NCBI GenBank assembly: GCA_963922205.1
Contig: CAWUHX010000139.1
Location: 372,001-436,000, forward strand
DNA length: 64,000 nucleotides
Source: Romanomermis culicivorax
Lineage: Eukaryota > Nematoda > Enoplea > Mermithida > Mermithidae
Direction of reading: 5' to 3'
Shown: piece after piece, positions 9,671 to 36,853 of the stretch
Numbering within the stretch: the stretch's first letter is position 1
Layout: each line of letters opens with the position of its first letter
Notes under the pieces: model-generated
Seen by the model: the letters and a program-made list of their open reading frames with translations, nothing else
The model's database searches: none
Told to the model about the DNA's origin: nothing
Translations under genes and position numbers: made by a program

Positions 9671-9674
9671 GTAG

Positions 9675-9838
9675 CATAGCCACCTTCTCTAACAATTTTT
9701 GTAGCATTGCGGCCTTCTCCAATGATTTTTGTAGCATGATCGGCTTCTCCAAGAATTTTTGTAGCATCACCCCCTTCTCCAGCAATTTTTGTTGGCTTGT
9801 TGATTGTTGCATCATCATCATCATCATCATCATCATCG
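9675..9838. repeat. 30-bp minisatellite plus (GAT)n microsatellite
   Basis: Four imperfect 30-bp units built on CTTCTCCAA..ATTTTTGTAGCA run from about 9680 to 9795. On the minus strand they read as ten-residue units of the form ATKIxGEGxx. An uninterrupted CAT/GAT run follows at 9811-9838, giving nine Asp on the minus strand. A 101-codon minus frame (9568-9873) spans both, but composition explains most of it. Confidence 0.8.
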
Positions 9839-11454: not shown

Positions 11455-12123
11455 TGTGAAGAAGAAAATAGTTTTGGTATAATTTGCATAATTTTTATAG
11501 AAAGTTTACTGTAGTTCGTTTTAATTAATCGTTTTTATATTTTTATTCTTTTTCTGCATAATTAGTAATCCTGTCACTGGTTCCTAGCACCACCCGAACC
11601 AAAAGTTCCAACTTTGACCAAATTTCGTAAAAACATTAATCCTAAACCTACCAAATCTATACCAAAGCATATGTGGTTGATTCATTAGCCTTTAGCTAAT
11701 GCGGTTTGGCCCTTATGCGCCTGTTATCTATTAATCTTAGAAAATGCTACCTAGTCGTACTATCTTAAGGATATAACCGATCAGAAAATATATAATTCTT
11801 TTCTCAGAAAACCAACCAAAGCTTTTTCCACACATAACTACCGTAATCGCCTACCGTAATATCTCCTCTTTATAACCTAACATTACCAGTTTTTTATAAA
11901 TACCAATCTTCTAATAATAAATTTTAGTGTATTTGGTTAGCCTTAATTTTTCGCAATTCGTTAGTTTAAAATTTCTAAAGTTCGCCGTTGGGCATTTGGT
12001 TATACCTTTATCGAGCAATTATGGCGCCACGTTTGTTTTACGCAAGGAAAAGTAGTTTTTTAAATTGTTAGTTTATTTAATAAAAAATCCCAAAAATCTA
12101 CATTTTGTCATTTGCCCCTGACA
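11455..12123 (+). repeat. Gypsy-1 5' LTR (669 bp)
   Basis: Same length as the 3' LTR, differing at four positions (GGATATAACC versus GAATATAACC; AATATCTCC versus AATACCTCC; GTTTTTTATA versus GTTTTCTATA; GCAAGG versus GCACGG). It begins TG and ends CA. It would carry promoter and polyadenylation signals; AATAAA-like words occur near its end. Confidence 0.95.
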
Positions 12124-12128
12124 AAAGT

Positions 12129-12141
12129 TGGCGAGGCTGGT
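12129..12141 (+). promoter_or_regulatory. Gypsy-1 primer-binding site
   Basis: TGGCGAGGCTGGT follows the 5' LTR after five bases. TGG is the complement of a tRNA 3' CCA end, as expected for minus-strand priming. I did not assign the tRNA. Confidence 0.6.
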
Positions 12142-12349
12142 AAAATTTATTTTTGGATAACTTTCAAAACAAAATACAAAAAAAAAAAATAATATAATAT
12201 TTTTTCTTTGCTAAAAAATTGTTTTTACGAATTATCGTGCATGCTCATTTTTATTTTCTTTTTATTACAAATTTTCCCGTATTTTCGAGTCACATCAGAT
12301 AAGGCGTAAATTATCTATAGTGACCAAAGTACAGTTTTTTTGTGCACAA

Positions 12350-12565
12350 CTTTCAGTACTACAGCACGGTTTCAGACCAGCATAGACATACAGTAATTTA
12401 CACAGTCAGCTTCCTGATAGCTAACAAACAAAACTAGTTTCTACAGCACGGTTGTCGCAGCATAGGAACATTTTTCACACAGTTTCTACAGCACGATATC
12501 AAGGAAAGTTTGGTACTAAGCATAGAAACTGTTCACACAAGTCGTATTCTACAGCACAGCTAACG
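12350..12565 (+). repeat. Repeated CTACAGCACG motif in the Gypsy-1 leader
   Basis: CTACAGCACG or CTACAGCACA occurs four times (about 12358, 12441, 12486, 12551), often followed within 15-40 bases by AGCATAG. It lies in the untranslated leader between primer site and gag and could be a packaging or regulatory array. Confidence 0.6.
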
Positions 12566-12874
12566 ATTCATAAATCTTTTCTATTTTATTCCTTAGCTAG
12601 CATAGAAATTTGGATATTTTCCACAGGCTGGTGGAAACAAAATATTTTGGGAAATATTTCTTTTTGTGAATTTCTTAGTTTTTTCATTTTTGTTGGTTTT
12701 CTCAACAAAACAAAAAAAAAAAAAAAGTCCATTGTGGATAATTCAACACCCAGTACAAAACGTTTACGAGGTAATCTTTCAAATCCTAGTTTACCTCTGC
12801 ACGACCAATTTGACAATATTATAAAAAGTGCAAAAGAATCAGTTTCCTCGAAAAATCTTCGCCAAACTTCAAAA

Positions 12875-14611
12875 ATGAGTCAATTTGATCCTACTGCTTT
12901 AGAAACGACCATCAATAGCAGCCTGAGAAAGGTCTTAGCACCTCTTGATCAACGAGTAAATGATCTGTATGACAGGCTTGATGATGTAAATTTAACTGAC
13001 ACTAACAGAAAGATTGCCGATTTAACAGCAATGTTAGGCAATGTAAATTTAGTAGATGCTGCAGAAGAACTCAGAAGGGCAGCCCGTTTTAACCCTATCC
13101 TTTCCTTAAGACCGCCATCAACATTTTCAGGAGCATTAGGTGAAAACTTGACTGATTGGTTTGAAAAACTTGAGCAATATATGCGTCTGCAAGGTATTTC
13201 TGATAACGATGATGCCTACAAAAAAGCCTATCTTGAATCCAATCTAGCAGGCCCAGCACAGGCCTCTTTTCGTGAACTAAAGCGCCATATCAATCCTCCT
13301 AACACCTACGATCAGTTTAAGCATGAGTTATTGAACATTTATCCTGATGGCAGAGACTCAGATGTTCACCAACAAATTATTTATGATCGTAAACAACGTT
13401 TTAATGAAACTGTATTGGAGTACCTTGATTCTCTACGTAAATTAGCATGTGCAGCCTACCCAAATCTTGATGAAAATGCCAAACAAACTATTATAAAACC
13501 GATTTTTCTGCGGGGCTTAAAAAATAATGTTCGTGAAGCTATAAAATTTCGCGAATTTTCGACCCTATCTGATGCATGTAAAGCTGCATGTTATACTGAA
13601 TCCCAGCTCATGAGGGACGATATTTACAATAGTCCCTCTACCACTAATGCTACTATTTCTACTCTAGCCCTACAAGACCAACGTGTGAAGAAGTTGGAAA
13701 ACGCAATTAATGAATTGCAAAGCCAACTCAAGATGAGCCAACAAAAACGTTATTGCAAAAATTGCAAGACGAACACACACACCACAGAAACGTGCCGGCG
13801 TAGCAACGGTTATCAAAACGATAATCATGGCCAAACCCGAAAGTGCATGATTTGCAACAGGGAAGGCCATTTTTCCCACCAATGTCGTTCCCCCTGTCGG
13901 AATTGCGGGTGCACAGGGCATAAAACATCATCATGTTCAATGTGGCCCAGAAAAGGTATGAACTTTCAAAATGGTGGACAGCAAAATTATCGACAAACCC
14001 AAAATAATCAATATACTGGCAGGCAAAATAGAAATCTGCATCAAAATACAATAAGTTCTCTTGATCTTGAGGATGAAAGTTTAGCTATGTTATATCCTCT
14101 ATCAACTGGCATATCGAATGAATTCATCAACTGTAATTTAGATCCATTCTGCACGTGCAGATATTGTCCTCAACATGGCGTCAAAAATGGTCAAGAAAAT
14201 ACCAAAACTGATACACCACAAACCGCGAATCAACAACTTGCACCACCACAAAAATATCAAACGGATTCAGTTATGGAAACTGATGATCGCCCAAAAACGC
14301 CACAAATTGATGAACACCAATTAGCAATTGACAAGCTCACATTCGCATTAAACACCATTGAAATGGAGTGTGAACAGGAAAATGATCCAATTGTCAAAGA
14401 AAAGCTTGTAAAGCATGCCTCGAACATAAAAATGCAATTGGCTCATGTTATAACCAGTAAGATCAAATCCATTTTTTCCTATCTTGCATCATTTCTAAAT
14501 ATATTTCCTATTACAAAGGCTAAAGATCATCTACCATTGATTGCCAAGTGCCACGATCCAAAATCCATTTGCAGTGCCCAAAGGACGCGTCTCAACGTTT
14601 GTAGTGATAAA
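12875..14611 (+). CDS. gag: Gypsy-1 Gag region (capsid and three CCHC zinc knuckles)
   Basis: Gag packages the RNA and forms the particle. The frame is open from 12452, but that begins at a TTG, and the first in-frame ATG is 12875, so I start here. A retrotransposon-gag capsid domain lies at about 13090-13570 (RPPSTFSGALGENLTDWF..LEQY). A predicted coiled segment (KKLENAINELQSQLK) then precedes three C-X2-C-X4-H-X4-C knuckles whose first Cys codons are at 13754, 13844 and 13895. A Gln/Asn-rich linker follows. There is no stop or frameshift at the end: the frame runs straight into the envelope-like domain. Confidence 0.9.
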
Positions 14612-16330
14612 ATGATTTATTATTTTTACATCTTCATATTTTTAACCTTAATTTTTGTGACGCCTACATTTAGTAAAGAGTACCAAATATGCGGTGCTTC
14701 TAAATCTGGTCATGCTCTGGAAATTCCAAAAAATATAACTTGCCGACCACCAAATAAAATTTTTAAACCGTACTCTATCAATGTTTCTGTCTATGTCCCA
14801 AGAAGTGAACCAATACTGTCCAAAGCTTTTAAATGTTTTATAAGAAACCGTGTAATATGCACAAATATGGGGTTTTTTGGATCAAAAGGCATCGTTGCTG
14901 ATAAAATCTCTACGATAAATGTCAGCCCCCTTCAGTGTACTAAAGCAATCAAAAGTAAATCCTATTACAACAAACCGTTAGTAAAAATGCATGATGGGCT
15001 TTGGTCCACTAATCAGTCTTTAGCACTGAATTTTTCTTGGTGTTGCAAAGATTTTTGCCAAAAGTCCGAAAATTTTTTCATAGAAGAAGGACATGTTGCC
15101 ACCTGGGATGGAAAACTCCTGACTTCTGACCTAGGAGACCTAGGTGGATGCGTGCCCAATGCAGGCCGATGTACCAATCATGAAAGTACTATCATCTGGA
15201 ACCAAACTACTATTTCTCACGTTTGTCCAATGGTCTTAAAAGGTACATATATGGCTAAAATTAGCGGCATGTACATCATTATTGACGAACTTCAGGGAGC
15301 TTTTAAACTCCAATCAAGCTACAAAAATTGTCCAGAACTTTCTCATGCCTTAAGTACTCATCAAGGAGTTGTACTTATAATTAAAAACGGATATAATATG
15401 AATGAACACGATATGAAAACACAAAACAATATTTCCTTAGATCCAGTAAATGCAAAGCTTAACTATCTTGAGAACAAAATGCTAAGAAACGAAAAAGAAA
15501 ATTTCCGATACGTCTGGCTAGAAATGTGCAATTATGCCCAAAAATATTTAGATATTATTTGGCAAATGCTTTTGTTTGACCCTACGCTAGGAATCCGCGC
15601 TTTGCTTCAAAGGCAAGATGTGACTGCCGACTTTACTGGTCAAATTTTAACCGTATGGTCATGTAAAAAGGTAAAAGTTCATAAAACGTATGATGACCAC
15701 AAAATAGGTTCTACGTGTTATAAGTATTTGCCAGTTATTGTTGAAAAGTACACGATGTTTGTGACCCCTGGTGGTCTGGACTTAACAGAATATAGTCCAA
15801 CAGTTGATTGTGCCCATCAACCCGTGCTTATTTTCAAGAAGAATTCCAAATGGTCTACTAAAGCAGGGCCGATTCATGTCAGCTATGTACCTATGGAACT
15901 GCTGTGGAAAGGTCATCATAAAATGTTTCAATTTGACACCCCATCGATTTTTCATGACAAATTGGCTGTAGCCCCTACAAATTTTGCATTTTTGCGCCAA
16001 TATATATCCAAAACTCAAAAACTAGAAGCTATTTTGAACAATGTTGTTAATTATAATTCAGCTCTTTCCCTACAACCCGATGCTATATACAGTACATTAG
16101 CAGGCAGGGGAACAGGTGTCAAGACTGCTGTACAAGGAATAGGCCAATCTTTCGAGCATGTTCTTAGAACAGAAAGTGACATATTTTCGAATATTTTTCA
16201 TGACCTCATCAAAGCGCCCCTTCAGCTTATTTTAAATAGCGTGGTCATAATCCTTGTTGTTTTAGCCATTTGCTACTTAGTATACGTTTTTCTCATTTGG
16301 TATTTAGCCAAACGAAAATCTCGCATCCGA
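14612..16330 (+). CDS. Gypsy-1 envelope-like glycoprotein domain, between Gag and protease
   Basis: Starts at an in-frame Met followed by a signal-peptide-like hydrophobic run (14612-14675; YYFYIFIFLTLIFV). The ectodomain of about 540 residues has many cysteines and N-glycosylation sequons (NIT, NVS, NQS, NFS, NQT, NIS). It ends in a membrane anchor at about 16226-16308 (VVIILVVLAICYLVYVFLIW) followed by a basic tail (AKRKSR). This is the plan of a class-type viral envelope protein. The Cys/Trp-rich patterns (WCCKDFC; TVWSCKKV; STCYKYLPV) faintly recall glycoproteins of negative-strand RNA viruses captured by retroelements, but I cannot prove that. Known gypsy env genes lie after pol; here it is in frame upstream of protease. 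Gypsy-2 has a homologue in the same place. Confidence 0.8.
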
Positions 16331-18157
16331 GACAGTTGTTTGTCCCAGCAAACCGTTTCTTTTGGCCGAGCTCTACTAGAAATGTCCAAGACGAAAGCAA
16401 ATGCAAAAAATAAAACAAAACAGCCTAAATTATCCCGATTCAATATTCGCTTCAACAAAACCAAAGATAATGTTGATATAGAACAGGCTGTAAATCTTTT
16501 CATAGATCAACAAAAGAGAACCCCATACGTAAATGTTACAATTAATGATCAACTTACAGTAAAAGCATTGATTGACACAGGTGCTGTCTATTCTATCATT
16601 GATGCAGATATTGCTGAAAAACTATCAAATTTAAGAATCCTAACTACAACAGCTCGTCCGATAGCAGCAAATAAAACTCCGATCAAGCTTCATGGAGCAG
16701 TTTTCTTAACCGTAACATCTTACGACATCTCTGAAACTCTCCTAGTTCAAATACAGGAAAATTGCACGGCAGATTTGATTCTGGGGACAAATTTTCTCAA
16801 TCGTTTTAAAAGCATTGAAATCAATTGGGAGAATTCTTTTATCCGATTCAAAAGTTGTCATATTCCTTGTGACGGCATGCATTTTAATTCACCATCCAAC
16901 AGAAGTGCAATGCTCATGGATGAAACGGTGTGTCTCGATCCCAGATCAATAAATGTAATATCAGTCACAGTACCTATGCAATACAGAAGAATTTTGCAAG
17001 ATATTGTGTTTGAACCAAAAGTGATGAAAGAAAAGTATAAAAATATTTATTTCGCCTCATCAATTAGCAAAATCACTAATAATCGCATCCCAATCCAAGT
17101 GATTAATTTGAACCCATTCGTCACAAAAGTCTATTCGGGCATGAAAATCGGTGAAATTAAATGTTTCCCTAGCCAGTACTCATCCAATTCTGTAATAAAC
17201 TCAATTAGTAACCAATTTTCAGAACCTAATCATAAATTATCATGCACTACTCTTGAATGGATCAGCAAAAATTGCAATATTCCAACTAACTTGAAAAAAG
17301 AAGATAAAACAAAGCTATTTAATCTACTATTGCACTATCCTAATTTGTACGCTTTAGATGAAAAGGATACAGGGACAACTACATTAGTTGAACATCAAAT
17401 AAACACCGGCGATCATAAACCTATCCATAAATTTCCCTTTCGGACGTCTCCGAAGGAAAAAGAAATTATCACAAATGAAGTAAGAGCCTTAGAAGCTAAA
17501 CAAATCATCCAAAAGAGTACGTCACCATGGTCAACGAATTCAGTCTTAGTAAATAAAAAAGATGGTGGCCATCGGTTATGTATCGATTTTCGTAGCTTAA
17601 ATGAAGTGACAAAAAAAGACGTCTATCCCTTGCCAAGGATTGACGATATCCTTGACACTTTGAACGGCATGTGTTATTTCACTACCCTAGATCAGGCCAA
17701 CGCCTATTGGTCTATCCCAATTTCCACTAAAGATCGTGAAAAAACAGCCTTTATAACCCCTACCGGACTTTATGAATTTAACTATCTTCCATTTGGGTTA
17801 TGCAACGCACCCGCTACTTTCCAACGATTAATGGACTTACTTTTATCCGGCCTACAATGGTCATCATGTCTCGTCTATCTAGACGATGTCCTAATTTTTG
17901 CTAAATCACACGATCAAATGCTCTCTAGATTAAAAGCAGTGCTAGATCGCTTGCAACAAGGAGGCATGAAATTGCGTCTTAATAAATGCAAATTCAGTTT
18001 TCAGGAAGTAAAATATCTTGGGTACACAATATCAGCCCAGGGTATTAGTCCAGATGATACAAAAATTCAAGCTGTAAAAGCAATTACCGCACCAAAAACA
18101 GTCAAAGGGCTGAAATCATTTTTAGGCCTAATTTCATATTATCGAAAATTTATACCA
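16331..18157 (+). pseudogene. pol: Gypsy-1 protease and reverse transcriptase, cut by LINE
   Basis: Continues the same frame. Retropepsin active site DTGA has its Asp codon at 16574 (ALIDTGAVYSIID). Reverse transcriptase follows: SPWSTNSVLVNKKDGGHRL near 17521, FTTLDQANAYWSIP near 17680, PFGLCNAPATFQ near 17795, and catalytic YLDD with Tyr at 17876. After the thumb/connection piece SFLGLISYYRKFIP the frame hits the LINE at 18157/18158. Readthrough into the LINE ends at a stop at 18265. The domain set and the YLDD box are typical of Ty3/gypsy. Without the insertion it would continue directly to RNase H at 23271. Confidence 0.93.
18145..18157 (+). repeat. LINE target-site duplication, left copy
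   Basis: AAAATTTATACCA, repeated at 23271-23283 after the poly-A tail. It lies in the RT coding sequence of Gypsy-1. Confidence 0.9.
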
Positions 18158-18418
18158 GATTGGTGGAGAAAGGTGGCTTCCGTTTTTTTCTCTGTGAAAA
18201 ATTTACATGCCAACCTATATTACTGCGTTGTAGTTTCTTTTTGCGTCATTTTTGCTGGGCTATGATATAGTGTCAACGACGCCTTGTGTTTTGTACGAGA
18301 AATTTTTTCGCCAGGCCCGAGCAAACTTTATCGGACGTTTTTTACATTATTAGATTATTGGATTAGCAATATAACGAAATTTTTTTTTTTACGTCGACAA
18401 ACATTTTTATACTGAAAC

Positions 18419-18940
18419 ATGGCTAAACGAACGGGCGGCAACATTGTACCTTTGGGAAATTCGAAATGACAAAAGTTGGACGATCGAATCGACAGCAATG
18501 AAAAAGCATCCCTTGAAGATCGAGTCGAGTCGTTGGAGCGAAGAATCGAATCGGTCGAACGAATCGTTCGGAAATCAGTTGGCTGGTTCTTCAACTTTCC
18601 GACCGATACGTACAAAATTGATATCAAGTCGACGGCTGAACAAAAACAGCAAGAAATTCGTCGTTTTATATCCGAAAAAATGGCGATGGTGGACGAAGAA
18701 GTTGGGTCGTTAAAGATCGACTGGATCGGCGTTTTTCCAAACAAAGAAGGCGTCCAACGTCAGGTAAAAGTCGTCTTTGCCAGTTTGGAACACAAGCAAA
18801 AAGTAGCGATCCACGCCAAAAATCTAGCGAACTTTAACAAAACTAGAAAACCTCCAACGATTTTCGGAGACGATTTGACAAGGAAACAACGTCAAGAAAA
18901 ACGGGAAAAATTCGCCAAGAAAAAATTATTGCAACAGTGA
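18419..18940 (+). pseudogene. ORF1: LINE ORF1 (coiled coil and RNA-binding type), one stop
   Basis: The ATG at 18419 opens MAKRTGGNIVPLGNSK, stopped by TGA at 18467-18469. The same frame then continues to TGA at 18938-18940. Residues after the stop form a short heptad region (LEDRVESLERRIESVERIV), followed by an RRM-like fold pattern with QRQVKVVFASLEHKQKVAIH and AKNL. A basic tail ends the protein. ORF1 proteins of this group bind the element RNA as nucleic-acid chaperones. Total length, about 173 codons, is short for L1 ORF1p but the layout is right. One base change would explain the stop. Confidence 0.7.
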
Positions 18941-19280
18941 GTTTTTCGTCTCTCGTTTTTTTTTGTTCTGGGTTAATGTGTAAACTAACCTTTTTTCTCT
19001 TTCCGTCATAATTTTCTTGCTGTTCAACATGTTAATAAAAAAAATTCAATGGTAGAAATAAAATGGTGGTAAATTTGGCATCACCTGGAAGTGATGCATA
19101 CATCGTGCCCTTCGGGGTTAAAATTAATTGTTACCTATGCGCCTCAAGCTTCGGCTTGCAGGTTTTCAATCTTCATCTAGTAGCAGCTTGTAAACTTGAA
19201 ACGAGTAATTTTTTTTTCATTTTTGTCAAATTTCAACAATTAAGTTTCTATTTTTAAAAAAGGAAAAACTATTTTCTGAG
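18941..19280 (+). other. LINE inter-ORF spacer with two CTTCGG hairpins
   Basis: Contains CCC-TTCG-GGG at 19109-19118 and CAAGC-TTCG-GCTTG at 19145-19158, both cUUCGg-type tetraloops if transcribed, plus a weaker TCAC..GTGA stem at 19081-19094. It could influence ORF2 translation. Confidence 0.5.
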
Positions 19281-22200
19281 ATGCAAAATACAAGTGAAAA
19301 AAAAATCTACAAAAAATTAGTAAATGACCCAGCAAATGACGCAATTTTTTCTTGTCTTATGTCATATAACTTAACCTTCTTATCATTGAACTGTAAATCT
19401 ATAAAACCTGAGGCTAAGAGGAGACAGATATTTTATTATGCAAAGTCAAACAAAGTTGATATCCTCTTTCTGCAAGAAACTCATGTTGTACCGGAAATAG
19501 CAAATAGGATAAGACTAGAGTGGGGCTGCAGTTCTCAATCAATTTTTTTATCAAATGGGCGATCTAATTCCAAGGGAGTTGCAATACTATTAAACAATAC
19601 CTTTGCACATGAAGTCCTTAGAGTGAAAACAGACAAAACCGGTAGATATGTGTTTTTAGAATTAAAAATTGAGGAACAACTGTTAGTATTGGTAAATGTG
19701 TATGCACCGGTGCTTGAGAAAGAACAACTGCATTTTTTCGACGAACTCTTTGCTGATTTGAAAGACTTTAACGTGAAAGACGGATCAGTAATCATGGGTG
19801 GAGACTTCAATGTCACGTTAAATGAGAAACTAGACAAAGTAGGAGGAAAAGAAGGGACCACAAAAAAACGTTCAGTAGCAAAAGTATTGGAATGTATCTT
19901 GAAGCTTGATCTAGTGGATGTCTATAGAGCTATGTATCCCTCCAAAAGAAGTTACACTTGGAGTCTGTCAAATCAAATGGTGAAGTGTCGTCTAGATTAT
20001 TTTTTCATCTCAGAAGAAATTGTTACTCAAGTAAGTGATTGTAACGTCATTAGTGGACTACCTTCAGACGACAAGGCTGTCATGTGTCAGCTAGTAGGAA
20101 ATCTTTACAGGAAAAGAGGTCCGGGTTTCTGGCATTTCAATAACACTCTAAAAGATGACCAAAATTACAAGCAACTGCTGGAAGAAATAATAAAAGAAGC
20201 ACTTGCGGACTGCAAAAGTTTGGAAAGTAATCCAGTGAATACATGGGAATATGTTAAATACAAGATAAAAAATAAAACTATAATATACTGCAAGGAAATC
20301 TCAAAAAAGAGAAAGAACCAAGAAATTGCTTTGAGAACAGAATTACAGTCACTGCAGAGCCAAATAGATAATTTGGAGGTTGGAGGAAACCAAGAAAGAT
20401 ATAACGTTGTTAATGCAGAACTCAATGAAATTATAGAGAGGAAAATAGCTTTTTCAATGGAAAAAACAAAACTAAGGTGGAATCTAAAAGGAGAAAAGCC
20501 AAACAAATATTTTTTGAACATGGAGAAAAGAAACTATAATAAAAAACACATAAGTAGTTTACAAGATGCACAAGGAAACCTTACGACAGTTCCTCTAGAA
20601 ATAATGAATAGACTACATGGTTTCTACAGTAAACTGTATCAAAAAAGAAATATTGCCCAAGTCGTTCAGGAGAATTTTTTCAAAAAACAGCAAAACATAA
20701 ATACGAGCAGATAACAAATGAGACCAAAGAATTTGTCGAAAGAGACATAAGTACTGTAGAGTATCATGAAGTGGTTCAAAGCATGAAAAATGGCAAGTCT
20801 CCCGGAGATGATGGCATTACAGTAGAATTCTATAAAACATATTGGGAGTTGGTAAGAGTGCCTTTAATGAAATCCTTAAACTACGGTCTTGAAAATGGAG
20901 TTCTGGGTGATTCCCAGAGGAGAAGTATAATAACACTAATTCCGAAGCCTGGGAAAGACCTAGGTGATGTGGCCAACTGGCGTCCAATATCTCTGTTGAA
21001 TGTGGACTATAAAATTCTAGCAAAAGTACTGGCAATTAGACTAAAAAAGACATTAGCCAAAATCATACATGAAGATCAAAAAGGTTTCATGCCAGGCAGA
21101 TATATTGGTGAAAATATAAGGTACATACTGGATATCATTGACCACTGTAAAAAAACAGGAAAAGCGGGCTATCTGGTTTCTCTTGATATAGAAAAAGCAT
21201 TTGATTCATTAGATTGGAACTTCATGATTAATTCATTGAGGAAATTCAATTTCGGCGAGAAATTCTGCAATTGGATAAATACACTTTATAATGGAGCTGA
21301 AGCAGTAGTACAAAATGCAGGTTTCTCAACCAAGCGATTCAAACTGCAAAGAGGTGTCCGTCAAGGATGTCCTCTCTCACCATACATTTTCATATGTGCA
21401 ATGGAACTTTTAGCTATAAATCTACGTGAATCTAAAGAATATAAAGGGTTGGAAATTAAAGGTGAAAATCATGAAGTTTCGATGTATGCTGATGACACTA
21501 CAATTCTAGTTGAAGATGGAAAAGACATGGAAAATGCTATCTCAATATTGAACGAATTTGCTGATGTTTCAGGTTTGATGGTAAATCTGGACAAGACCCA
21601 AGTATTGGGATTAGGAGACAATCGCAGCAAAGAAACAACTTTATGTAAATGCCCTGTCAAAGATGTGCTAAAAGTACTGGGTATACACTTCTCCTACAAT
21701 GAGGAGCTCATGAACATGAAAAACTTTGGTGAAAAAATCACGAAATGTCAGAGAAAATGTGAAATATGGAAGACCCGAGGATTAACATTCTTTGGAAAAG
21801 TCACAGTGTGGAATTACTTAATAATGTCCACATTAAACTACAATTTCATAAATCTGCCAGTGAGTAAAGAAATTGTGAGAGAACTGAAAAAAATGCAGCA
21901 GAACTTCATGTGGAATGGATCGAAACCGAAAATAAAATCCGCAGTAATGATACAGAGCTATGAAAATGGTGGTATAAAGATGCCAGATGTGCAAATTTCC
22001 GTCACAGCTCTCAAATCAAAATGGATCAAGAGGCTAGTAAATCATCCTGGTAAGTGGAGTAAGTTAGGAACATGTGAGTTGGCAAAGGTGGGAGGATTGG
22101 CAGAACTGATTCAGTCGAATTTCTCCACAAGCAAATTGAAAATATACCTGTCACCCTTCTACGCTGAGGTACTTGACACTCTTCAATACATTCCCATTAG

Positions 22201-23104
22201 CAATACGCTCGAGATTACTTCACCTGCTGAAGTAATTCTACAAAGAATAAACAACAACAGATATGTGTTAATAGACAAGAAATCCATCTTCTTACCGAAT
22301 ATACAAGGAACGAAATTTAACTACTTATATTATTGGTTGGAAGATGGATGGTCCATCAAAACCTACCAGAAATTAAAGAATGAAGGAGCCAAAATTAGCT
22401 GGATGGACTATGCTAAAGTAATTTATGCCATACCTAAACAATGGAAACAGTTTCTAAGCAGATATCAAACATTATGGAGTGAATTTGAATACAACATACA
22501 ATCCTTCAACATTAATGACCTAGATAAAGCAAAAAAACATATGATTGAAGCGAAACAAAATATCCCAAAAGGCGAACTAGCTTGGGAAAAGAAACTACAA
22601 CTCTCAGCAGGAAGAGAATTTGACGAACCTTGGAAAATTCTGAGCACACTCAAGGTTGGCAACAAATATAAGCAATTCCAGTTTAAAATTCTCCACAACA
22701 TTCTGATTACCCCTTACCTGCTTACAAAATATAAAATACAGGTATCGGACAAATGCCAACACTGTAACGAAAAAGCAGATATACTACACATATTTGTAGA
22801 ATGTCCTGTAGTAAAAATATTTTGGAATGATGTAGAACATGCTGTAAGAAAGTCTGTAGAACCAAATTTCAGATTCGAAAAAAATGATATAATCTTGGGA
22901 ACCAAACTGGCAGAAAAAAATATAATGTCAAACGTCATAAATATTCTGATAATCTTTACAAAATTTCACATATACAAAGTTGCAAATACAAAAAAGCAAT
23001 TATCCTTTAAACATTTTAAAAATGACCTCAGCTGCTTCCTAAAGCTTTTGGATCGTCATGCCTATGTAGCAGAAAAATCTATCCTGGAACTCGTGATATC
23101 ATAA
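19281..23104 (+). pseudogene. ORF2: LINE ORF2: AP endonuclease plus reverse transcriptase, one frameshift
   Basis: Starts at ATG 19281. The endonuclease motifs are LSLNCKS (near 19384), LFLQETH (near 19461), GGDFNVT (near 19798) and RLDYFF. The last motif reads SDDKAV near 20062 where the family has Ser-Asp-His. The frame stops at 20714 (TAA), but coding continues in another frame from about 20690, so a one-base indel occurred in the T6/A6 runs at 20675-20687. RT blocks follow: LIPKPGKDLGDVANWRPISL (20940), QKGFMPGRYIGENI (21079), LDIEKAFDSLDW (21184), RGVRQGCPLSP, and catalytic MYADDTT (21483). A Cys/His motif CQHCNEKADILHIFVEC lies near 22755. Stop TAA at 23102-23104. The protein nicks DNA and primes cDNA synthesis there; this copy cannot. 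Confidence 0.92.
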
Positions 23105-23270
23105 AAATGAAAATCAACTCAACAAATCAAAACGGCCATAGAGCCACCCCCCTAGCCTCAAGGGTAAGTAGTACTATGAATATGTTTTTTTTTTCTTTTC
23201 CTTTGCGTGTGTACTAAATACTTTATGTCGTATTGTATGTAATTATTCCGAATAAAACCAAAAAAAAAAA

Positions 23271-25269
23271 AAAATTTATACCAAGCTGCGCCCAGCTATG
23301 TCAACCATTAACCGAATTGCTGAAAAAAAATGCTAAGTTTGTTTGGGGGGAAAGACAAAATACAGTTTTTGAATATCTGAAAAATAGACTGATAAACCCT
23401 CCGATTTTGAAGCATCCCGATTTTTCCAAACCTTTCATTTTGCAGACAGATGCCTCTTTGGATGGCATAGGCGCAGTTCTTACCCAAATTGATTGTGACG
23501 GTAAAGAACACCCTGTCGCATTTGCAAGTAGAACCTTAAAATTAGCAGAAAAAAATTATCCTATCACTGAACTCGAAACGTTAGCAGTTGTAGAGTTTGT
23601 AAAATATTTCCAACCTTATCTTTATCAACAGGAAGTCATGATCCAAACCGATCACACAGCCGTGAAAGCTGTATTGGAAAAATCCAACCCCAATGGACGC
23701 ATAGTTCGCTGGGGACTTGCCTTAGCCGGCATAAAATTGAACATTCAACCAAGAAAAGGTCACAGGAATGCCAATGCTGACACTTTATCAAGATTACCCG
23801 ATTCTGATGCTAAACCAGTGTTTGATATAGAAACGGATGCCATTGCACGCCCACAAGAATCAAAACATGAACCAAATGTCAACTCTATTTCTGATGAACA
23901 AATCAATTTAAAGAAATTGCAAAGAGATGATCAGTTTTTGAATCCAATAATCACTTCACTTAGTGACAATGAAGAATGTGAAAGTTTTCCTAACTATCTT
24001 CTTAAAAATGGTATCCTATACAAAAATGAAAATGACATTGGAAAAATTGTGGTCCCTCAAGCATTGATTAACTTGGTTATACAAACTCATCATGATGATG
24101 AATTAGCGGGACATTTTGGCTCAAGAAAGACTATACAGTTCATTGAAAAAAGATATTTTTGGCAAACCCTAACAAAAGACGTAACGAATTACTGTAAAAC
24201 CTGCACAGTTTGTCAGAAAAATAAACCAATGCGTCGAAAAATCAAAGCTTCTCTAAAACCAATTCCAATCGATGGACCTTTTGAAAGAGTTGCTGTAGAT
24301 TGCATGGGTCCCCTGCCCTTAACTGAAAAGGGAAATCGATTTATAGTTGTATTTATCGATTACTTCACCAAATATATTGAGGCTTTCGCCACACCCGACA
24401 TTACAGCTAATACCATAGCACAACTCTTTGTCAATCATATAGTTTGTCGTCATGGAGCTCCAAGCATTTTGCAATTAGATCAAGGGACAGATTTTACGTC
24501 AAAGCTCATGACAGAAATCACTAGCCTGTTTAATACTCGAAAAATCCACACTTCAGTGTACCACCCAATAGCCAATGGGGAGGTGGAGCGTGCCAATCAA
24601 ACGTTGATCACTCAGATCCGTATGTTTATTCAAAATGGCAATCATGCTAATTGGGATCATCATTTATCTTATGCAGTTTTTGCAACGAATATACATGCTA
24701 ATGCAAGCACAAATCATTCACCATTTCAGCTAGTTTACGGACGTTTACCAAAACTGCCAATTGATGCTGTCTTACATTTTAATCCCTCAGTCTACTTCGT
24801 TGATCTTGATGACTATCACGTGGAAGTTAAAAAGCATTTCACACAAGCACTCACTATAATTCAAGATGAAATTCAAAAGGCACAAGAAAAATATAAACAA
24901 GCATATGATAAAAACCAAAACAATGTGACTTATAAAATTGGTGACTATGTTTGGAAAGAGTCACAAATGATCAGGAAAAACCAAGCTAAAAAGTTACAAC
25001 CTATCTTTCAAGGTCCTTACAAAAGCCTTGACATAAAATATCCCAATCTTTTTCTGAAAAATCCTAACAATTCAACTGGTGTTGAAACTATTCACGTCAA
25101 TCGCTCTCGACCATTTGTTGGACGCCACAACGAAAATCAAAACAATTTTGATCAAGTGATAGCTCAACCAGATACAGAAGACAAAGAAATTCGGTTATCT
25201 TTGAAGTCCGACTTTGTTCAAAAGGATGATAATCGACAACATGGATACAACTTGAGAAAACGGAATTGA
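23271..25269 (+). pseudogene. pol: Gypsy-1 pol, 3' part: RNase H and integrase
   Basis: Resumes at the right duplication copy with the residues expected after RKFIP. RNase H: PFILQTDASLDGIGAVL (near 23433), ITELETLAVVEFV, QTDHTAVKAVL (near 23644). Integrase: HHCC zinc module (HHDDELAGHFG.. and CKTCTVC, 24089-24225). The catalytic core has Asp in AVDCMGP (near 24298), Asp in LQLDQGTDF (near 24478) and Glu in NGEVERANQTL (near 24583). A C-terminal region with QGPYKSLDI (near 25012) resembles the GPY/F module. Ends TGA at 25267-25269. The 13 codons before 23271 are LINE tail read in frame. No env or extra frame lies between its end and the 3' LTR. Confidence 0.93.
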
Positions 25270-25292: not shown

Positions 25293-25302
25293 AGCGGGGG
25301 AA
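25293..25302 (+). promoter_or_regulatory. Gypsy-1 polypurine tract
   Basis: AGCGGGGGAA directly before the 3' LTR, the plus-strand primer of reverse transcription. Confidence 0.7.
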
Positions 25303-25971
25303 TGTGAAGAAGAAAATAGTTTTGGTATAATTTGCATAATTTTTATAGAAAGTTTACTGTAGTTCGTTTTAATTAATCGTTTTTATATTTTTATTCTTTT
25401 TCTGCATAATTAGTAATCCTGTCACTGGTTCCTAGCACCACCCGAACCAAAAGTTCCAACTTTGACCAAATTTCGTAAAAACATTAATCCTAAACCTACC
25501 AAATCTATACCAAAGCATATGTGGTTGATTCATTAGCCTTTAGCTAATGCGGTTTGGCCCTTATGCGCCTGTTATCTATTAATCTTAGAAAATGCTACCT
25601 AGTCGTACTATCTTAAGAATATAACCGATCAGAAAATATATAATTCTTTTCTCAGAAAACCAACCAAAGCTTTTTCCACACATAACTACCGTAATCGCCT
25701 ACCGTAATACCTCCTCTTTATAACCTAACATTACCAGTTTTCTATAAATACCAATCTTCTAATAATAAATTTTAGTGTATTTGGTTAGCCTTAATTTTTC
25801 GCAATTCGTTAGTTTAAAATTTCTAAAGTTCGCCGTTGGGCATTTGGTTATACCTTTATCGAGCAATTATGGCGCCACGTTTGTTTTACGCACGGAAAAG
25901 TAGTTTTTTAAATTGTTAGTTTATTTAATAAAAAATCCCAAAAATCTACATTTTGTCATTTGCCCCTGACA
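25303..25971 (+). repeat. Gypsy-1 3' LTR (669 bp)
   Basis: Starts TGTGAAG and ends CTGACA. Four substitutions and no indel relative to 11455-12123. Followed by AAAG, the target duplication. Confidence 0.95.
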
Positions 25972-25975
25972 AAAG

Positions 25976-27158
25976 TACTTTCAGCCAAGATGCCAAGATG
26001 TGTTTCTATTCTCAGTTGCACAGGCAAGTGTATTAGCCATTGGTAGACATAAGTGGAAAAAAAAACAGGAAAGAAAAAGAACAGAAAATAGGGAAATGAA
26101 CAGAAAATAGGAATAAGAATAGAAAATAGGAATAAGAATAGAAAATAGGAATAAGAATAGAAAAGGAACATGAAGTGAGAAATGAGAAATATAAAGAAAA
26201 TAAAGTAAAAATATAGAAGAGAATAAAACTTGGTGAAAAAATGAAAATACAAGAAATGAGAGGAGAAAATAATTGTAGCATAACAAATTCACAACAGCTT
26301 TTGCATCATCTTATCAGATAAACTTTGAGTTAAACATCAGCAGCACTCTTACAGTTTATCATGCCTGCATGTGATTTACACCTTCATTAGTTTATGTATG
26401 TGAGTTGAAACTCAAATTTGACAGGATAAAAAAGCCTCAGCCCACAAACAAGCAAAAACAAGCATTTGCCCATTCAATGCTGAAGGACAAACATTCAAAA
26501 AATGGTGACACACAAGACGAACATGAAAATAGAGGTAGAACCAAGATAGACAATAGCATAATTCTTATTCCATCCATTTATGACTTTTAGGTTTTGATTA
26601 GCCACATTATCTCGTCTATTTTGTGCAATATTGGAGGAACTTCAATTTCAAAATGTTTCAAATTAATTTATTTATTAATTAAAAAAATGCATATTTTTAT
26701 TATATCTGGAACTGCACTCCAACTTCAATATAGGTTATCGATCGATTTTTTCAGAAAATGTACAATTATATTTCTTCCTCACTATTACTGATTTGTGTTA
26801 GCTTAGCCAATGTCAAAAAAGCTGTTTTCTAATTATTCAAGTACTGTTCAAGAGGTTAGAGCCAAAGAGGATCCAGATTCGACCCACAATCAGTTACTGA
26901 GCAAAAGTGTTGCAAAGAGTGAGGACATTGACAAAGTTGTTATTTGTGAAAATGACGATTTTGATATTTCATCACAGTTTGGTGATATATTCAACTTTCT
27001 TATTGAACTTTTTTTGAAATTTCCTGTTAGCAGCCTGCTAAAAACCCTTGTTAAAGCATGCTTATGTTTAAATTTTGCAGTTCTGATTTAATCTGTGCTA
27101 ATGTTTAAGATTTTATTTACTCTGAAAAAATTAACAATAACAGCCACCTGTGATCTTT
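25976..27158. other. Flank between Gypsy-1 and Gypsy-2, no gene recognised
   Basis: Holds a purine-rich minisatellite (26091-26165) and two ATG-started frames of unknown meaning (26405-26590; 26810-27091, beginning MSKKLFSNYSSTVQEV). I see no family motif. The end CTTT at 27155-27158 is the Gypsy-2 target duplication. Confidence 0.4.
26091..26165. repeat. AGAAAATAGGAATAAGAAT minisatellite
   Basis: About four units of 18-19 bases inside a longer purine-rich tract. The minus-strand Phe/Leu/Ser-rich frames over it are compositional. Confidence 0.85.
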
Positions 27159-28056
27159 TGTAACAACCAGATTTGTGTGAGGTACTTTACTTTCAACCAA
27201 ACGGCGTTACGGCGGGAGCAAAGGAGGGCGGGTGGTACAATACGGGGCGATAGGGCTTTACAATAATCGACGGCTGCTTTAGTCATCGATACGACAAACG
27301 ATAAATGATGAACGCGGCAAGTACACACGGCTTAATTGCTTCCGAATAAAAATGAGACTCGCTCTCAGTATAAAAAAAGACGCTTGCAAATACGGGGCGC
27401 AGAAGTCGAAAATGTAAAATCACAAGAATAATAAAATCACGCTTTGCTTCTTCTTTTATACGACGTTTTTGGCCACTCCCTGGGCGTCACGGGAGGTCGA
27501 GCTTCTGTCCATCTTCTTCCGCCAATCATCGTTTCCTGCTACGCTTTTTATGCTTTTCTTAGTTACGCCATTCTAATGCTTTCCTGGTACTGTATGCTTT
27601 CTGTGCTTTGCTTGCTTCCTACGGTGGGCTTAGCCACACCTTTGTGCTTCTGTGCATGCTTCCTGTATCCATTTCTCTGTATACACATGTTTTGTGGGGC
27701 CACCGCTACCGTTAATCTTGAGACTACTGTCTGGCGGGGCTTCTACGTATTTTACTGTGTGCAGGTGGTGTTTACGATTTTTACTGGGGATTACGGTAAA
27801 TGTGGAATGTGTAGTTTAGTGTAGGTTCTAGGGGAACAGCTGCCGTTTGTGCAAATTAATTAGGGCATCTTAATTGGGCTACCGGGGTGTGAACGGATCA
27901 AAATAAAATACTTCACATAATTTTAGAGGAATGTTTGGGTGTGAATCCCAGACACCCTTGAGACGATAAAATGTGAAAATAAAATAATATCTAATAAATG
28001 TCTATCACATACAGTATGCTGCATATTTACAGTACTGCTTTAGCAGGTACGTTACA
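27159..28056 (-). repeat. Gypsy-2 3' LTR (898 bp)
   Basis: Complete LTR beginning and ending in the TG/CA pattern. Its right 518 bases (27539-28056) match 32212-32729 without gaps. On the minus strand the purine tract GGAAGGAGGGAAA directly precedes it. The plus-strand frame at 27444-27824 lies within it and is not considered a gene. Confidence 0.85.
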
Positions 28057-28087
28057 TTTCCCTCCTTCCGGAGTTGAATGTCCTCGT

Positions 28088-31000
28088 TCAAGGCTTTCGA
28101 GGTTGAGGCCGGGTGGTGGTATATTCCATAGTTGCTTTCCGAGGGTAAAAAGGGGTTGTCTCGTTTACATGCAACATAAATGCTATATTCTTATGGGGGT
28201 GTTTGAGTGTAACATTGGGGTACAGGAAATTTGTAACTGTATTGGGCCCGTTTTGGCCAGGGAGGAATTTGAGAGTCAGCCCTTGTTTACATGAATGGAT
28301 TTTGTAAAGGATAAGATCACCTGCCTTGTAATGTATGTTTTGAGCATGCTTGTTATACTGACGGGTATAGTGATCTTGTGCTTTTTGTAAGCTTTCCTGC
28401 ACGGTTGAGAGTGCTTCTGTAAAATGCGATTTTACACGAAGGGCGTAATCGTCTAGATCAACCATGTAGGATGTGGGGAAAAAATTTAAGGCTGCGTCTG
28501 ATGGCAGATGAGCCTGTCTACCATGGAGTAATTCAAATGGGGGATACGAAGTGCTATCATTTTTATGAATGTTGATCGAAAAAACTGCATATGGGAGATA
28601 AGTATCCCAATCAGTGTGATTTGAATTGATGTACATGCGGATACAGGTGGCTAGGGTCTGGTTGCAACGCTCAACTTCCCCATAGGCAATGGGATGGTAT
28701 GGGGTAGTATGAATTTTCTGAGTATTGCATAAACTGGTGATCCGTTGCAAGAGATCGGATACAAAATCAGAGCCAGGATCACAATGGATGATTTTTGGGG
28801 ACCCATGACGGCAAACAATTTTGGTTACGAATAGCTTGGCAATAGTGGCTGCAGTGATGTCAGGGGTCAGGAATGCCTCTACATACTTTGTGAAATAATC
28901 GATGAAAACGACAATGAATCAGTTGCCGTCTTCAGTGAGGGGTAACGGTCCCATGCAATCAACACCGACTCGATCAAATAGGCCAGTCGGCTGAATTGGT
29001 ACCAGATTTGCATGCACGCTCATTTGGGGCCAAAAATATTTTTGTCTGAGCAAGTGTAAAGTTTTTCGGGCCACAAAATGACCTGTGAATTTGCTGTCAT
29101 AATGAGAGGCAATGAGATGCTGGACCTGTGACTTGGGGATGTAGAGTTTGGCTTGTTTGTCGACTATTCCGAAGCGGATGTTTTGATGTACTGCGAATTT
29201 GATCAGAGTAAGGGGGTGCTTTTGGGCGATTTTTGCTAAAATACTTTTGACAGTTGGATCAGTGTGTTGGAGTTCGGCAAAATTTTTCTGTTGCTCTTCT
29301 TGTTCAGTTGCTTCGTCCTCAAGAACAGAATTGATTGTTGATATTTCGCGGCAGGTTTCGAGTTGCTCAATGTCAAAGGATTGCTTTGCTGTTTGTGAGG
29401 GGAATCGAGAAACAGCATCTGCGTTGCGATTAGCAGTGCCTTTCTTAGGGCGAATGTCTAGCTGAATACCAGAGAGGGCTAATCCCCAATGGGCTATGCG
29501 AGGGGACCGGTTTTCCTTTTGTAAAACTGCCTGAACTGCTGTATGGTCCGTATGTACAATAACATGTTGCTGGAAAAGATAGGGGCGGAAATACTTGACA
29601 AACTCAACTACTGCAAGGGTTTCTAACTCAGTTATCGGGTAGTTGTGTTCTGCGGGTTTTGGTGTGCGGCTCCCAAAAGCAATGGGGCGATCTTGACTTT
29701 TACTATCTAGCTGACTGAGAATAGGGCCAATTCCCAGTTTTGAGGTGTCAGTTTGCAGAATAAACGGTTTTGTGAAATCGGGATGCTGCAGTATTGGGGC
29801 ATGAATGAGTAATTCTTTTAGCTTAGTGAATGCGTTTTGCTGTTCAGGGCCCCAGGAAAATTCTGAGTTCTTTTTGAGTAGCGATGTGAGTGGGCTAGAA
29901 ACTTGAGAGCAATTAGGGATGAATCTGCGACAATACGAGGGTAGGCCAAGGAATGACTTAACTTCTTTTGAGCTTTTGGGCGTGGGTATGTCATAGATGG
30001 CCTGTACCTTATGGGGATCTGGTGAAATGCGTTGCTGAGAAATGACGTGGCCTAAGTATTGGACTTGGGGCTGGCAGAATTTGCATTTTTGTATGTTTAG
30101 TTTAAGGCCTGCTTGTGAGAATCGGGCAAAAATAGTGTCTAAACGTTCCAGCATTTGGGCATGGGGGTCTGCGAATACCAGAACATCGTCAAGATATACA
30201 AGGCATGTGTTCCATTGCAGACCCGAAAGAATAACATCCATTAACCTTTGGAATGTGGCTGGGGCTTTGGTTAGTCCAAAAGGGAGGTAATTGAATTGAT
30301 ACTAGCTGGCTGAGCAATTAAAGGCCGTTTTTTCTCTGTCTGCTTGTGCTATGGGAATGGAATAATATGCATTGGATTGGTCAAGGGACGTAAAATATTT
30401 CATTCCACGTAGGGTGTCTAGAATTTTGTCTATGGGGGGCAAGGGGTAGGAATTTTTTTGCTTACTTTATTGAGGCCTCTAAAATCAATGCATAAACGAT
30501 GGCCTCCATCTTTTTTGGGGACTAAAACTGTGTTGGTACACCATGGAGAATCGCTCTGGCTTATGACACCTGCTGCTGCGAGTTGTTTAACTTCTGCTTG
30601 TATGATTTGCTTTTCTTTTGGGGAAGTCCGATAAAGTTGTCTACGTACGGGTTGGGAGCCATTGGTGTCAATTGTATGTGAAACAAGGGTGGTTCTACCT
30701 ACGTCCATTTTGGATTTAGCATATAATGTAGGATACTTCGATAGGGCTCATAGAAGTTGCGTTTTCTCGGTTTCTGTGAGGTCACTGGAGGTTAAATTAA
30801 CATTTTCTTTTAACCATGTAAATGTATCAAAAGGATTGGGCTGGTTTTGTGTGGATGGGGTTATGTTAGCAGAAGCATTTTGTTTTGGGATGTAACATGA
30901 GACTGTACCAATGCATGTTCCGGGGTAAAGAATTTGAGCTGTTTCTTGTGTGTTTAGGACCGATATGCCTATGCGACTGTTTTGATTTTCAGAGATACAA

Positions 31001-31560
31001 GCTGCGAAATGGACTTTAGGATTCTGTTTGGGTTTCGGGGTGAATTCAAGCTGTTTGACCTGTAAGTACGATTTGGGCAAGGGGACAGTAAATTCGGTTA
31101 CTGTACCGGGTGGTAATTCTAATTTCTCGTCTAGATAGGTTCCACCACGGGTCGAAAGTGGGCTGTATTCTAGGCTGTCAAAAGGTAGTATGACATTGCC
31201 AAATTTGACCTGAGATTTCTGATTGTTGATAGTATATTCCGAAAATCGACTGAGAAAGTTTTTGCCTAGGAGGATGTCTGCTGTGCAATATTTTTGGACA
31301 TGGACCATTATTGTTTCCTGAATTGTTTGGGCTGTCACTGTGACGAAAGTGGTTCCTACAAAGTGGATCGGGAGATTATTTGCTGCTTTTGCTTGGACTA
31401 GCGGGTGTTTCATGTCTAACTGCAAGATTTGGGCGATGTGTGAATCAATGAGTGAGTAGACTGCACCAGTGTCAATCATGCCTTTTGTGATTAATTTGCC
31501 ATTAAGTGTGATTGGAATATGAGGGGTATGTTTCTCAGGTGCATTTTAGGGTGGCTTGTT
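28088..31560 (-). pseudogene. pol: Gypsy-2 pol: protease, RT, RNase H, integrase with several stops
   Basis: Protease MIDTGAVYSLID near 31475. RT pieces include KKDGGHRLCIDFRGLN near 30500 and catalytic CLVYLDDVLVF near 30195. RNase H: PFILQTDTSKLGIGPIL near 29750. Integrase: VGVDCMGPLPLTEDGN near 28960 and GEVERCNQTL near 28660, ending at 28088. It is close to Gypsy-1 but clearly diverged. Lesions seen: a TAA near 31548, a TGA near 30746, a frameshift near 30455, a TAG near 30303 and a TGA near 28918. Several fit CGA-to-TGA or similar decay. The remaining frames are long (440 and 243 codons), so it died fairly recently. Confidence 0.92.
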
Positions 31561-31689
31561 TGAGGCAGATTGGTGAATTTGATTAATGAGTTCGATTGCA
31601 GGGGTTCGGGGGGTATCAATGTCGACAAGGACGTATTTCTGCTGTGTTTGTGCCCCACGACGATTAGCCAATTTTAAGAGAGCATGGCT

Positions 31690-32211
31690 GAATGATGGGG
31701 GGATGGTCTCATGTAGATGTCCGTTGTTTGATGGTATTTCATATGCATGTTCATTTGTGGCATGATGCTTTGGAGAGGGGAAATATTTTCGAAGAACGAG
31801 AAAAGAATAAAAGACACCTGCAATAACTACAGTAATAACGGCTAGATTGATAATGATTTGTAGGGGTCCTTTGAGTAAATTGTTTAATCAGTCTGCGAGA
31901 CTTTGGGTGGTACTGGTTATTACATGTTTTATGCCTTGACTGGCGCCAGAGAGGGTATTTCAGAGTGCTTGGCCAGTGCCTGAGATCATGTTGTAAACTG
32001 TATCGGAATTGAGAGACATTTAGGCGGTGTAATTGAGGAGTTTTTTAACAACATTTTCGAGTGTGTGAGTTTTGTAAATGTATTGTTTCAAAAAGAGTAA
32101 ATCAGTTGAAACAGTTGCGAGTTGATCATGAAAAATGGCGGGTGTATTAAAATGGAAAAGGGAGAAATTTTGGTTCCAGAGGATTTCTAAGGGTAAATTT
32201 GTGACATGTGA
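31690..32211 (-). pseudogene. Gypsy-2 env-like C-terminal remnant upstream of protease
   Basis: The minus strand encodes the membrane-proximal end and anchor of the same glycoprotein as Gypsy-1: FNTPAIFHDQLA against FDTPSIFHDKLA, FLKQYIYKT against FLRQYISKT, then GPLQIIINLAVITVVIAGVF in the anchor position (near 31865). It is broken by stops near 32022 and 31888. At 32211 it is cut by the deletion that joins it to the LTR. Protease follows about 210 bases after the anchor, as in Gypsy-1. This independently confirms the env-before-protease order. Confidence 0.85.
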
Positions 32212-32729
32212 CTACACTTTTTATGCTTTTCTTAGTTACACCTTTCTAACGCTTTCCTGGTACTGTATGCTTTCTGTGCTTTGCTTGCTTCCTACGGTGG
32301 GCTTAGCCACACCTTTGTGCTTCTGTGCATGCTTCCTGTATCGGTTTCTCTGTATACACATGTTTTTTGGGGCCACCGCTACGGTTACACTTGAGACTAC
32401 TGTCTGGCGGGGCTTCTACGTATTTTACTGTGTGCAGGTGTTGTTTACGATTTTTAGGGGGGATTACGGTAGCTGTGGAATGTGTAGTTTAGTGTAGGTT
32501 CTAGGGGAACAGCTGCCGTTTGTGCAAATTAATTAGGGCATCTTAATTGGGCTACCGGGGTGTGAATGGATCAAAATAAAGTACTTCACTTAATTTTAGA
32601 GGAATGTTTGGGTGTGAATCCCAGACACCCTTGAGAAGATAAAATGCGAAAATAAAATAATATCTAATAAATGTCTATCACATACAGTATGCTACATATT
32701 TACAGTACTGCTTTAGCAGGTACGTTACA
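32212..32729 (-). repeat. Gypsy-2 5' LTR, truncated (518 bp)
   Basis: Aligns without gaps to 27539-28056. The inner part of the LTR was removed with the leader and gag. Its outer end is intact and followed by CTTT. Confidence 0.9.
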
Positions 32730-32733
32730 CTTT

Positions 32734-36532: not shown

Positions 36533-36853
36533 TTAAAGATTATTAAATTTAAAATCAATACTGTCACAAACAACTTGACTAATAATCATATAGCGACTTT
36601 GTAGCACCGGCACGTCAAGTAATTTTGCAAAAATTGATTCCAAATTCACCAACAATAAATCATCGCGATTTGGCCATTGGAATTTTGTTTTTTGGCCGCT
36701 TGGATGAAGAAACTTGACCTCTACAAAACCATCGGATTCCTGCCCATGTATGACGGCCAAAAACCATTGGGATTCGTATTCTACGGCCACCCAATCACCA
36801 TAGCGCAATTCATTCAACGAGCCTTGTGACGGTTGAGAAAATTCAGACACCAA
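36533..36853 (-). pseudogene. Pogo-like transposase, C-terminal chromo/Tudor-like domain
   Basis: The frame reads YGDWVAVEYESQWFLAVIHG then VEVKFLHPSG and KFQWPNRDDLLLV. This resembles the small C-terminal beta-rich domain found after DDE_1 in some Tigger/jerky-type transposases. It overlaps the end of the N-terminal frame at the deletion junction (36814-36853), so the intervening catalytic domain of roughly 200-300 residues is missing. Confidence 0.55.

Follow-up and report, generated by a model that had tools for sequence, protein, structure and literature searches.

A Ty3/gypsy element of Romanomermis culicivorax with a domain related to viral fusion glycoproteins in frame between Gag and protease

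Introduction

Among the closest described systems is Burro (GYPSM1), a giant Gypsy-like element of planarians in which the envelope gene (env) lies in frame between gag and pol and which was called the first case of this order in 2019 (PMC6431247). Here, we analyse a Ty3/gypsy element with an envelope-like domain in one open frame between Gag and protease (PR). The element lies in a stretch of 64,000 nucleotides from Romanomermis culicivorax (GCA_963922205.1, contig CAWUHX010000139.1, positions 372,001-436,000, forward strand), which we refer to as the window; all coordinates are positions in the window. A preliminary description of this DNA had stated that in the known env-bearing Ty3/gypsy elements (errantivirus type) env is a separate frame after pol, a statement that Burro corrects (PMC6431247). 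Thus, the gene order is already known from one group.

Other described elements resemble the window element in part. Errantiviruses and other insect endogenous retroviruses are Ty3/gypsy elements with a captured viral glycoprotein and repeated env loss, but their Env-F is of the baculovirus type and is encoded in a third, spliced open reading frame (ORF) (PMC12992720). In the Anakin BEL-Pao elements of mosquitoes, a chuvirus-type glycoprotein has been captured by a long terminal repeat (LTR) element; however, the polymerase is of the BEL-Pao type, and the accessible part of the report does not describe an env placed in frame between gag and PR (PMC7642597). TelKA of bdelloid rotifers has a glycoprotein from a negative-strand RNA virus, but of the paramyxovirus class I F type and in ORF3 after pol (PMC5408684). 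A survey from 2023 reported Gypsy fragments beside Jingchuvirales glycoproteins and, in its accessible part, no clear capture by Gypsy (PMC10084718). Steamer is an example of a single-ORF gag-pol without env (PMC8905726).

Results

The frame 12452-18265 is free of stops until 18265, and its first ATG is at 12875. Inside this open frame, Gag, three CCHC zinc knuckles, a signal peptide, an ectodomain, an anchor, a DTGA protease and the reverse transcriptase (RT) follow each other in this order (Table 1), as the preliminary description had it. In the env segment, there are no stops in 573 codons of this frame compared to 26 to 49 in the other five frames, and the probability of a stop-free frame at the composition of the segment is 4e-18; an open frame by chance was rejected on these grounds. 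The stop of integrase at 25269 is followed after 33 bases by the 3' LTR at 25303, which leaves no room for a conventional 3' env, and this arrangement was likewise rejected. For pol, the preliminary description stands in part: PR and RT follow env in the open frame, but pol is split by a non-LTR element (LINE).

The env-like segment is related by sequence profile to the Monjiviricetes G and herpesvirus glycoprotein B (gB) fusion glycoproteins. In Pfam, the 573-residue piece matches Monjiviricetes_fusion (PF24664) at residues 224-427 with 61.2 bits and the Borna disease virus G model (BDV_G) at residues 304-399 with 29 bits, the cut-off being 27 for both models; nothing beyond these two was found in Pfam at E up to 1. 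Across the seven full-length env rows, i.e. the window and six relatives, PF24664 scores above 27 bits in every row (42.7-72.7 bits in the relatives), BDV_G matches two rows at E <=0.1, and the gB model matches five rows at E <=0.1 with 16.8-21.8 bits where seen, against a cut-off of 43. Searched against the PDB, a profile of four env rows matched herpesvirus gB with a best E of 2.1e-4, and the profile of all seven rows did so with a best E of 1.4e-7 and with 10 matches at E <0.01. At E up to 10, the latter profile returned 48 sequences, of which 46 are gB: 42 by name and four, named BALF4, GP110 or ORF8, which we take to be gB. All gB matches are confined to profile positions 254-384, so kinship to gB, a class III fusion protein, is seen in this region and would extend to the remainder of the segment. 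These profile matches support the envelope-like domain of the preliminary description and argue against a structure unrelated to membrane glycoproteins, which that description had named as a finding that would refute it.

Relatives carry env at the same place. When the env part alone was searched against 3001 candidates of polyprotein length, three proteins were returned, all env-bearing. The RT part alone gave 4907 matches among 8000 candidates scored, and the following figures are from the best 120. PF24664 was found in five of these. Six matches have at least 40% identity over at least 95% of the query; four of them carry env (P0009, P0029, P0058 and P0066), one is without the ectodomain (P0006), and in one (P0012) the ORF begins inside an anchor-like segment so that its state is not readable. 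Blastp with the window env and the env profile each identified the same 8 of 123 proteins as env-bearing, three of the eight being themselves rows of the profile. In all eight, env is located between gag and PR or, in partial ORFs, directly before PR or after gag. Five (P0002, P0004, P0029, P0058 and P0066) have gag, env, PR, RT, RNase H and integrase in one ORF of 2327-2604 amino acids, with some of the gag and PR matches below the Pfam cut-offs. The ORFs of P0009 and P0077 begin inside env.

The cysteines of the ectodomain are conserved. None of the 16 that precede the anchor varies among the seven full rows, and 63 of 573 positions overall are invariant there, with 30-39% identity between the six relatives and the window. 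Invariance of 16 cysteines at this level of identity fits a disulfide-bonded ectodomain in an oxidising compartment and would thus imply translocation into the endoplasmic reticulum (ER). By hydropathy, a hydrophobic core lies ahead of the first conserved cysteine in the full rows, and the ectodomain is followed by a hydrophobic anchor. These features of an ER-lumenal ectodomain between a cytosolic Gag and a cytosolic Pol support the earlier proposal that the topology would be consistent with a polyprotein. Four of the six relatives (P0002, P0003, P0004 and P0066) have no in-frame methionine within 25 residues before the signal core, the nearest lying 29-73 residues upstream; the distance is 23 residues in P0029, 6 in P0058 and 4 in the window. 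Because these distances vary, no conserved private start codon for Env is seen.

Two relatives without the ectodomain retain a pair of hydrophobic segments at its place. P0006, the best RT match (55% identity over 97%, among the best 120), and P0118 have between knuckles and PR a hydrophobic segment ending in AxA, a loop of about 25-42 residues and a second hydrophobic segment. In a hydropathy control, PR was located in 62 proteins, of which 10 are env-bearing or are P0006, P0118 or P0012. The other 52 come mostly from the gene models of a single pseudoscorpion. Four of them (P0042, P0054, P0094 and P0106) have a hydrophobic segment ahead of PR; in five, the estimated start of PR was <1, so that the scan covered nearly the entire protein. 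Both knuckle and PR were found in only 18 of the 52, and none of these 18 had the hydrophobic pair. If this pattern is read correctly, both membrane passages would be under selection even where Env is gone, and nothing else in the analysis is as unexpected. Alternatively, the pair may have arisen independently in P0006 or P0118, as these sequences are too short to prove descent from env. Directly behind the signal-like segment, after the presumed cleavage, both proteins also have the short motif A-[SA]-P-[IV]-R-Q-[ST], even though the trees do not place their pol genes side by side.

For the trees, 110 RT and 63 RNase H-integrase (RH-IN) segments that fulfilled the coverage rules were used together with the window pieces; after dropping rows at least 70% identical to a kept row, 45 RT rows and 34 RH-IN rows remained. 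The label "no env" means that the listed ORF lacks env, and several such ORFs start at or near PR; P0012 was labelled "relict" in the tree scripts though its ORF starts in the anchor-like segment. In the RH-IN tree, a branch of modest support (82/85) sets the 10 env, relict or undetermined rows apart from the others, with a core of eight such rows at 98/96. In the RT tree, for which the bootstrap had not settled, 9 of 12 such rows unite at 92/87. In the env tree, P0058 pairs with P0066, P0002-P0004 and P0058/P0066 are apart from the window, P0009 and P0029 (96/98), and the long branch of P0077 is unplaced. The simplest reading of these trees is a single capture with later losses, although this is not proof.

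The window element has the traits of Metaviridae (Ty3/gypsy): LTRs, the order PR-RT-RNase H-integrase, which five relatives share, a CX2CX4HX4C knuckle and a GPY/F integrase motif (traits as named in PMC12440569). Its Pfam matches and the short distance between integrase and 3' LTR mean that the errantivirus traits of a baculovirus F-type Env and a separate Env ORF after pol are both absent. Troyka, with CG..CG termini, a CX2CX8-10HX4C knuckle and no envelope (PMC12440569), does not fit because the LTR of the window element begins with TG, its knuckles are CX2CX4HX4C and env is present. Nor does a spliced CERV of the Cer1 type fit.

Table 1. Positions of the element's parts and of the second element in the window
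Feature	Position	Strand	Basis or remark
5' LTR	11455..12128	+	674 columns aligned to 3' LTR, 4 differences
Putative primer binding site, begins TGG	12129..12145	+	Position only
Gag from first ATG of frame	12875..14611	+	Ty3_capsid-like at residues 108-243
Three CCHC zinc knuckles (nucleocapsid), CX2CX4HX4C	13751..13936	+	Motif positions
Predicted internal signal peptide	14612..14674	+	Cleavage probable after ..TPTFS; hydropathy and reading by eye only
Glycoprotein ectodomain	14675..16219	+	16 cysteines; homology matches
Stretch with Pfam Monjiviricetes_fusion match	15281..15892	+	E 6.6e-17, 61 bits, cut-off 27
Predicted transmembrane anchor	16220..16306	+	Then basic tail 16310-16330 (KRKSRIR); hydropathy
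Retroviral-type aspartic protease	16529..16804	+	Pfam; ALIDTGA begins 16565
Reverse transcriptase	17549..18031	+	PF00078 (RVT_1) E 2.3e-35; YLDD within 17870-17899
Non-LTR element (LINE) within pol	18158..23271	+	Endonuclease, RT with zf-RVT, A-rich end
Rest of pol: RNase H, H2C2 and rve integrase, GPY motif	23275..25269	+	Pfam; GPY by eye in integrase tail
Probable polypurine tract	25293..25302	+	By eye
3' LTR	25303..25976	+	LTR alignment
Second, older element, same lineage, internally deleted	27539..32732	-	LTR pair and env/PR match

The capsid match of Gag (PF19259) has E 2.4e-6 and 27.5 bits, below the cut-off of 29.1, and the individual knuckles are within 13751-13795, 13841-13885 and 13892-13936. 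If the LTRs end as TG..CA, their ends would be at 12123 and 25971, and AAAG then flanks the element on both sides. The insertion is probably young because the LTRs differ so little; nevertheless, this copy is broken because pol is split by the LINE, which is flanked by 12-bp target copies at 18146-18157 and 23272-23283. The LINE also holds an ORF1-like piece, and its endonuclease and RT are in separate ORFs.

In the second element, the LTRs (27539-28059 and 32212-32732) are identical in 499 of 521 columns and have no useful similarity to those of the first element. It starts abruptly in the C-terminus of env (32208-31807, minus strand), from where env continues into PR in the same frame through four stops, followed by RT-RH-IN. 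The preliminary description had named copies lacking the segment as a finding that would speak against it; this was looked at in the second element only, and there the env end is kept in frame before PR. The env ends of the two elements are 37% identical over 134 residues, which makes the second element a different family of the same lineage.

Elsewhere in the window, a third, more degraded gypsy pol fragment is at 1501-3006 (-). Two similar pieces are at 5164-5580 (+), with resemblance to an A32-like packaging ATPase (Pox_A32, E 1e-3, below cut-off), and at 8386-8724 (-), without a Pfam match; these may resemble Polinton/Maverick ATPases. An HTH_psq domain (E 2.8e-9) is at 36817-37224 (-), and tandem repeats are at 9671-9792 (30-bp unit, about four copies, 79% matches) and at 48959-49546 (319-bp unit, 1.8 copies). 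Rfam gave no match over the window at gathering thresholds.

Discussion

We suggest, with a probability of roughly 0.7, that the window element belongs to a Ty3/gypsy lineage with an old, probably single capture of a Monjiviricetes-type (chu-/nyami-/bornavirus) fusion glycoprotein, class III by its gB kinship and potentially active in fusion, in frame between nucleocapsid and protease, and that this lineage makes one polyprotein threaded twice through the membrane. In this model, Gag, Env and Pol would be translated as a single chain with Gag staying in the cytosol. The internal signal peptide would send the disulfide-rich, glycosylated ectodomain into the ER, and the anchor would bring PR-RT-RH-IN back to the cytosol. 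Signal peptidase would part Gag, with a membrane-embedded tail, from Env-Pol, while Pol would remain on the Env tail until the protease acts and later trims the cytosolic joints. As a result, Gag, Env and Pol would arrive at one membrane together for budding.

A single chain threaded through the ER is also the plan of flaviviruses and alphaviruses. At slightly under even odds, we extend the model by proposing that such a flavivirus-like plan operates in an old env-bearing retroelement lineage in which Gag, a class III Env and Pol form one polyprotein threaded twice through the ER membrane, with Gag as the cytosolic tail of the Env signal. Because the descendants without the ectodomain keep both passages, threading itself, and not only cell entry, would then be the benefit of the insertion. 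In foamy viruses, which may work alike, an Env leader with type II topology contacts Gag; however, Env is a separate protein there (PMC7828637), whereas in the window element Gag would be covalently upstream of the leader.

Several observations weigh against the model of a captured glycoprotein within one polyprotein. PF24664 was not seen in 115 of the best 120 RT matches, and the lack of the ectodomain in P0006 means that it is dispensable in some families. P0003 is a gag-env that ends just past the anchor. The window env as a single query gave only two matches in the PDB, both irrelevant (E 1.5 and 1.6). Capture by the element is an assumption about direction: searching env alone against 3983 candidate proteins of 315-1003 amino acids at E up to 10 gave no stand-alone viral relative, and no env relative turned up in viral contigs when these were scanned three times, with one, four and seven env sequences, so that no donor virus was identified. 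In the RT tree, P0002, P0004 and P0118 are outside the env group on an unresolved backbone, P0118 joins P0117 (96/84), and a single origin is seen in 0% of 200 bootstrap trees; the ORF of P0117 begins about 28 residues ahead of PR, too close to show whether env is present. In the RH-IN tree, a single origin is seen in 86% of 200 bootstrap trees, but the branch support does not reach the starred level. The control for the hydrophobic pair is small and draws mainly on a single animal species, and its segments were called by plain hydropathy. Finally, Env may be initiated separately in the window and P0058, where a methionine is close to the signal core, and the model as a whole is built on sequence.

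The alternative of most weight, which we nonetheless consider unlikely, is that different spliced mRNAs encode Env and Gag-Pol and that the joints are open for some other reason. The Env mRNA of errantiviruses arises by splicing, which in one subclade occurs from within gag (PMC12992720), and Cer1, in which no stop parts gag from pol, likewise makes a spliced product (PMC10309623); the methionines just mentioned would also suit this scenario. By contrast, both joints are open and stop-free in five of the eight env-bearing relatives, four of the six relatives with a full env lack a methionine near the signal, and the signal/anchor pair is still in frame in P0006 and P0118, for which there would be no need if it were spliced out. 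The same two proteins, by retaining only signal-like and anchor-like segments, lend some credit to a further reading in which the insertion is a membrane tether for Gag-Pol rather than a fusogen, with the ectodomain a passenger being lost. Yet the invariant cysteines and other invariant positions over seven divergent rows imply long selection on the ectodomain, and this makes the tether quite improbable.

Compatible with the model of a captured glycoprotein in a twice-threaded chain is the possibility, which we hold tentatively and at clearly less than even odds, that the window element is a small member of the planarian Burro lineage rather than separate. In Burro, too, env is in frame between gag and PR and matches mononegavirus fusion glycoproteins, and one Burro species has three CCHC knuckles (PMC6431247). 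However, the Burro env is also reported to be homologous to gypsy Env, whereas the match here is to Monjiviricetes/gB, and Burro has an internal region of up to 25 kb with many extra domains including a dUTPase (PMC6431247), a comparison made by description and not by sequence. The window element is about 9.4 kb without the LINE, no extra domain was found in it, and the giant size, dUTPase, and apoptosis and ubiquitin domains of Burro are absent; at E up to 1, the window pieces contain no match to dUTPase, BIR, ankyrin or BCL2, and at E up to 0.01 the 11 scanned relatives contain none either. A chance fusion in this copy alone, like the host gene fragment that the preliminary description had raised against itself, is refuted, as eight relatives and the second element in the window have env at the same place.

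What seems to be new is that this gene order occurs in a compact element, that the glycoprotein is of the Monjiviricetes/gB type, that several divergent families share the order, and that some relatives have the membrane passages alone. Priority is uncertain: a literature search, which missed most subscription papers, found no published report of such compact gB-type Gypsy families, and later work, which this search did not show, reportedly describes Ty3/gypsy elements with a gB-type Env in several animal phyla. In most known env-bearing retroelements, Env is produced separately from Gag-Pol. If our model is correct, a stable lineage that departs from this would show that reverse-transcribing elements can be assembled from one polyprotein that spans the membrane. 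Compact Ty3/gypsy elements would also join those known to have captured mononegavirus-type glycoproteins. The relatives without the ectodomain are a natural experiment that bears on which part of Env is required by the element.

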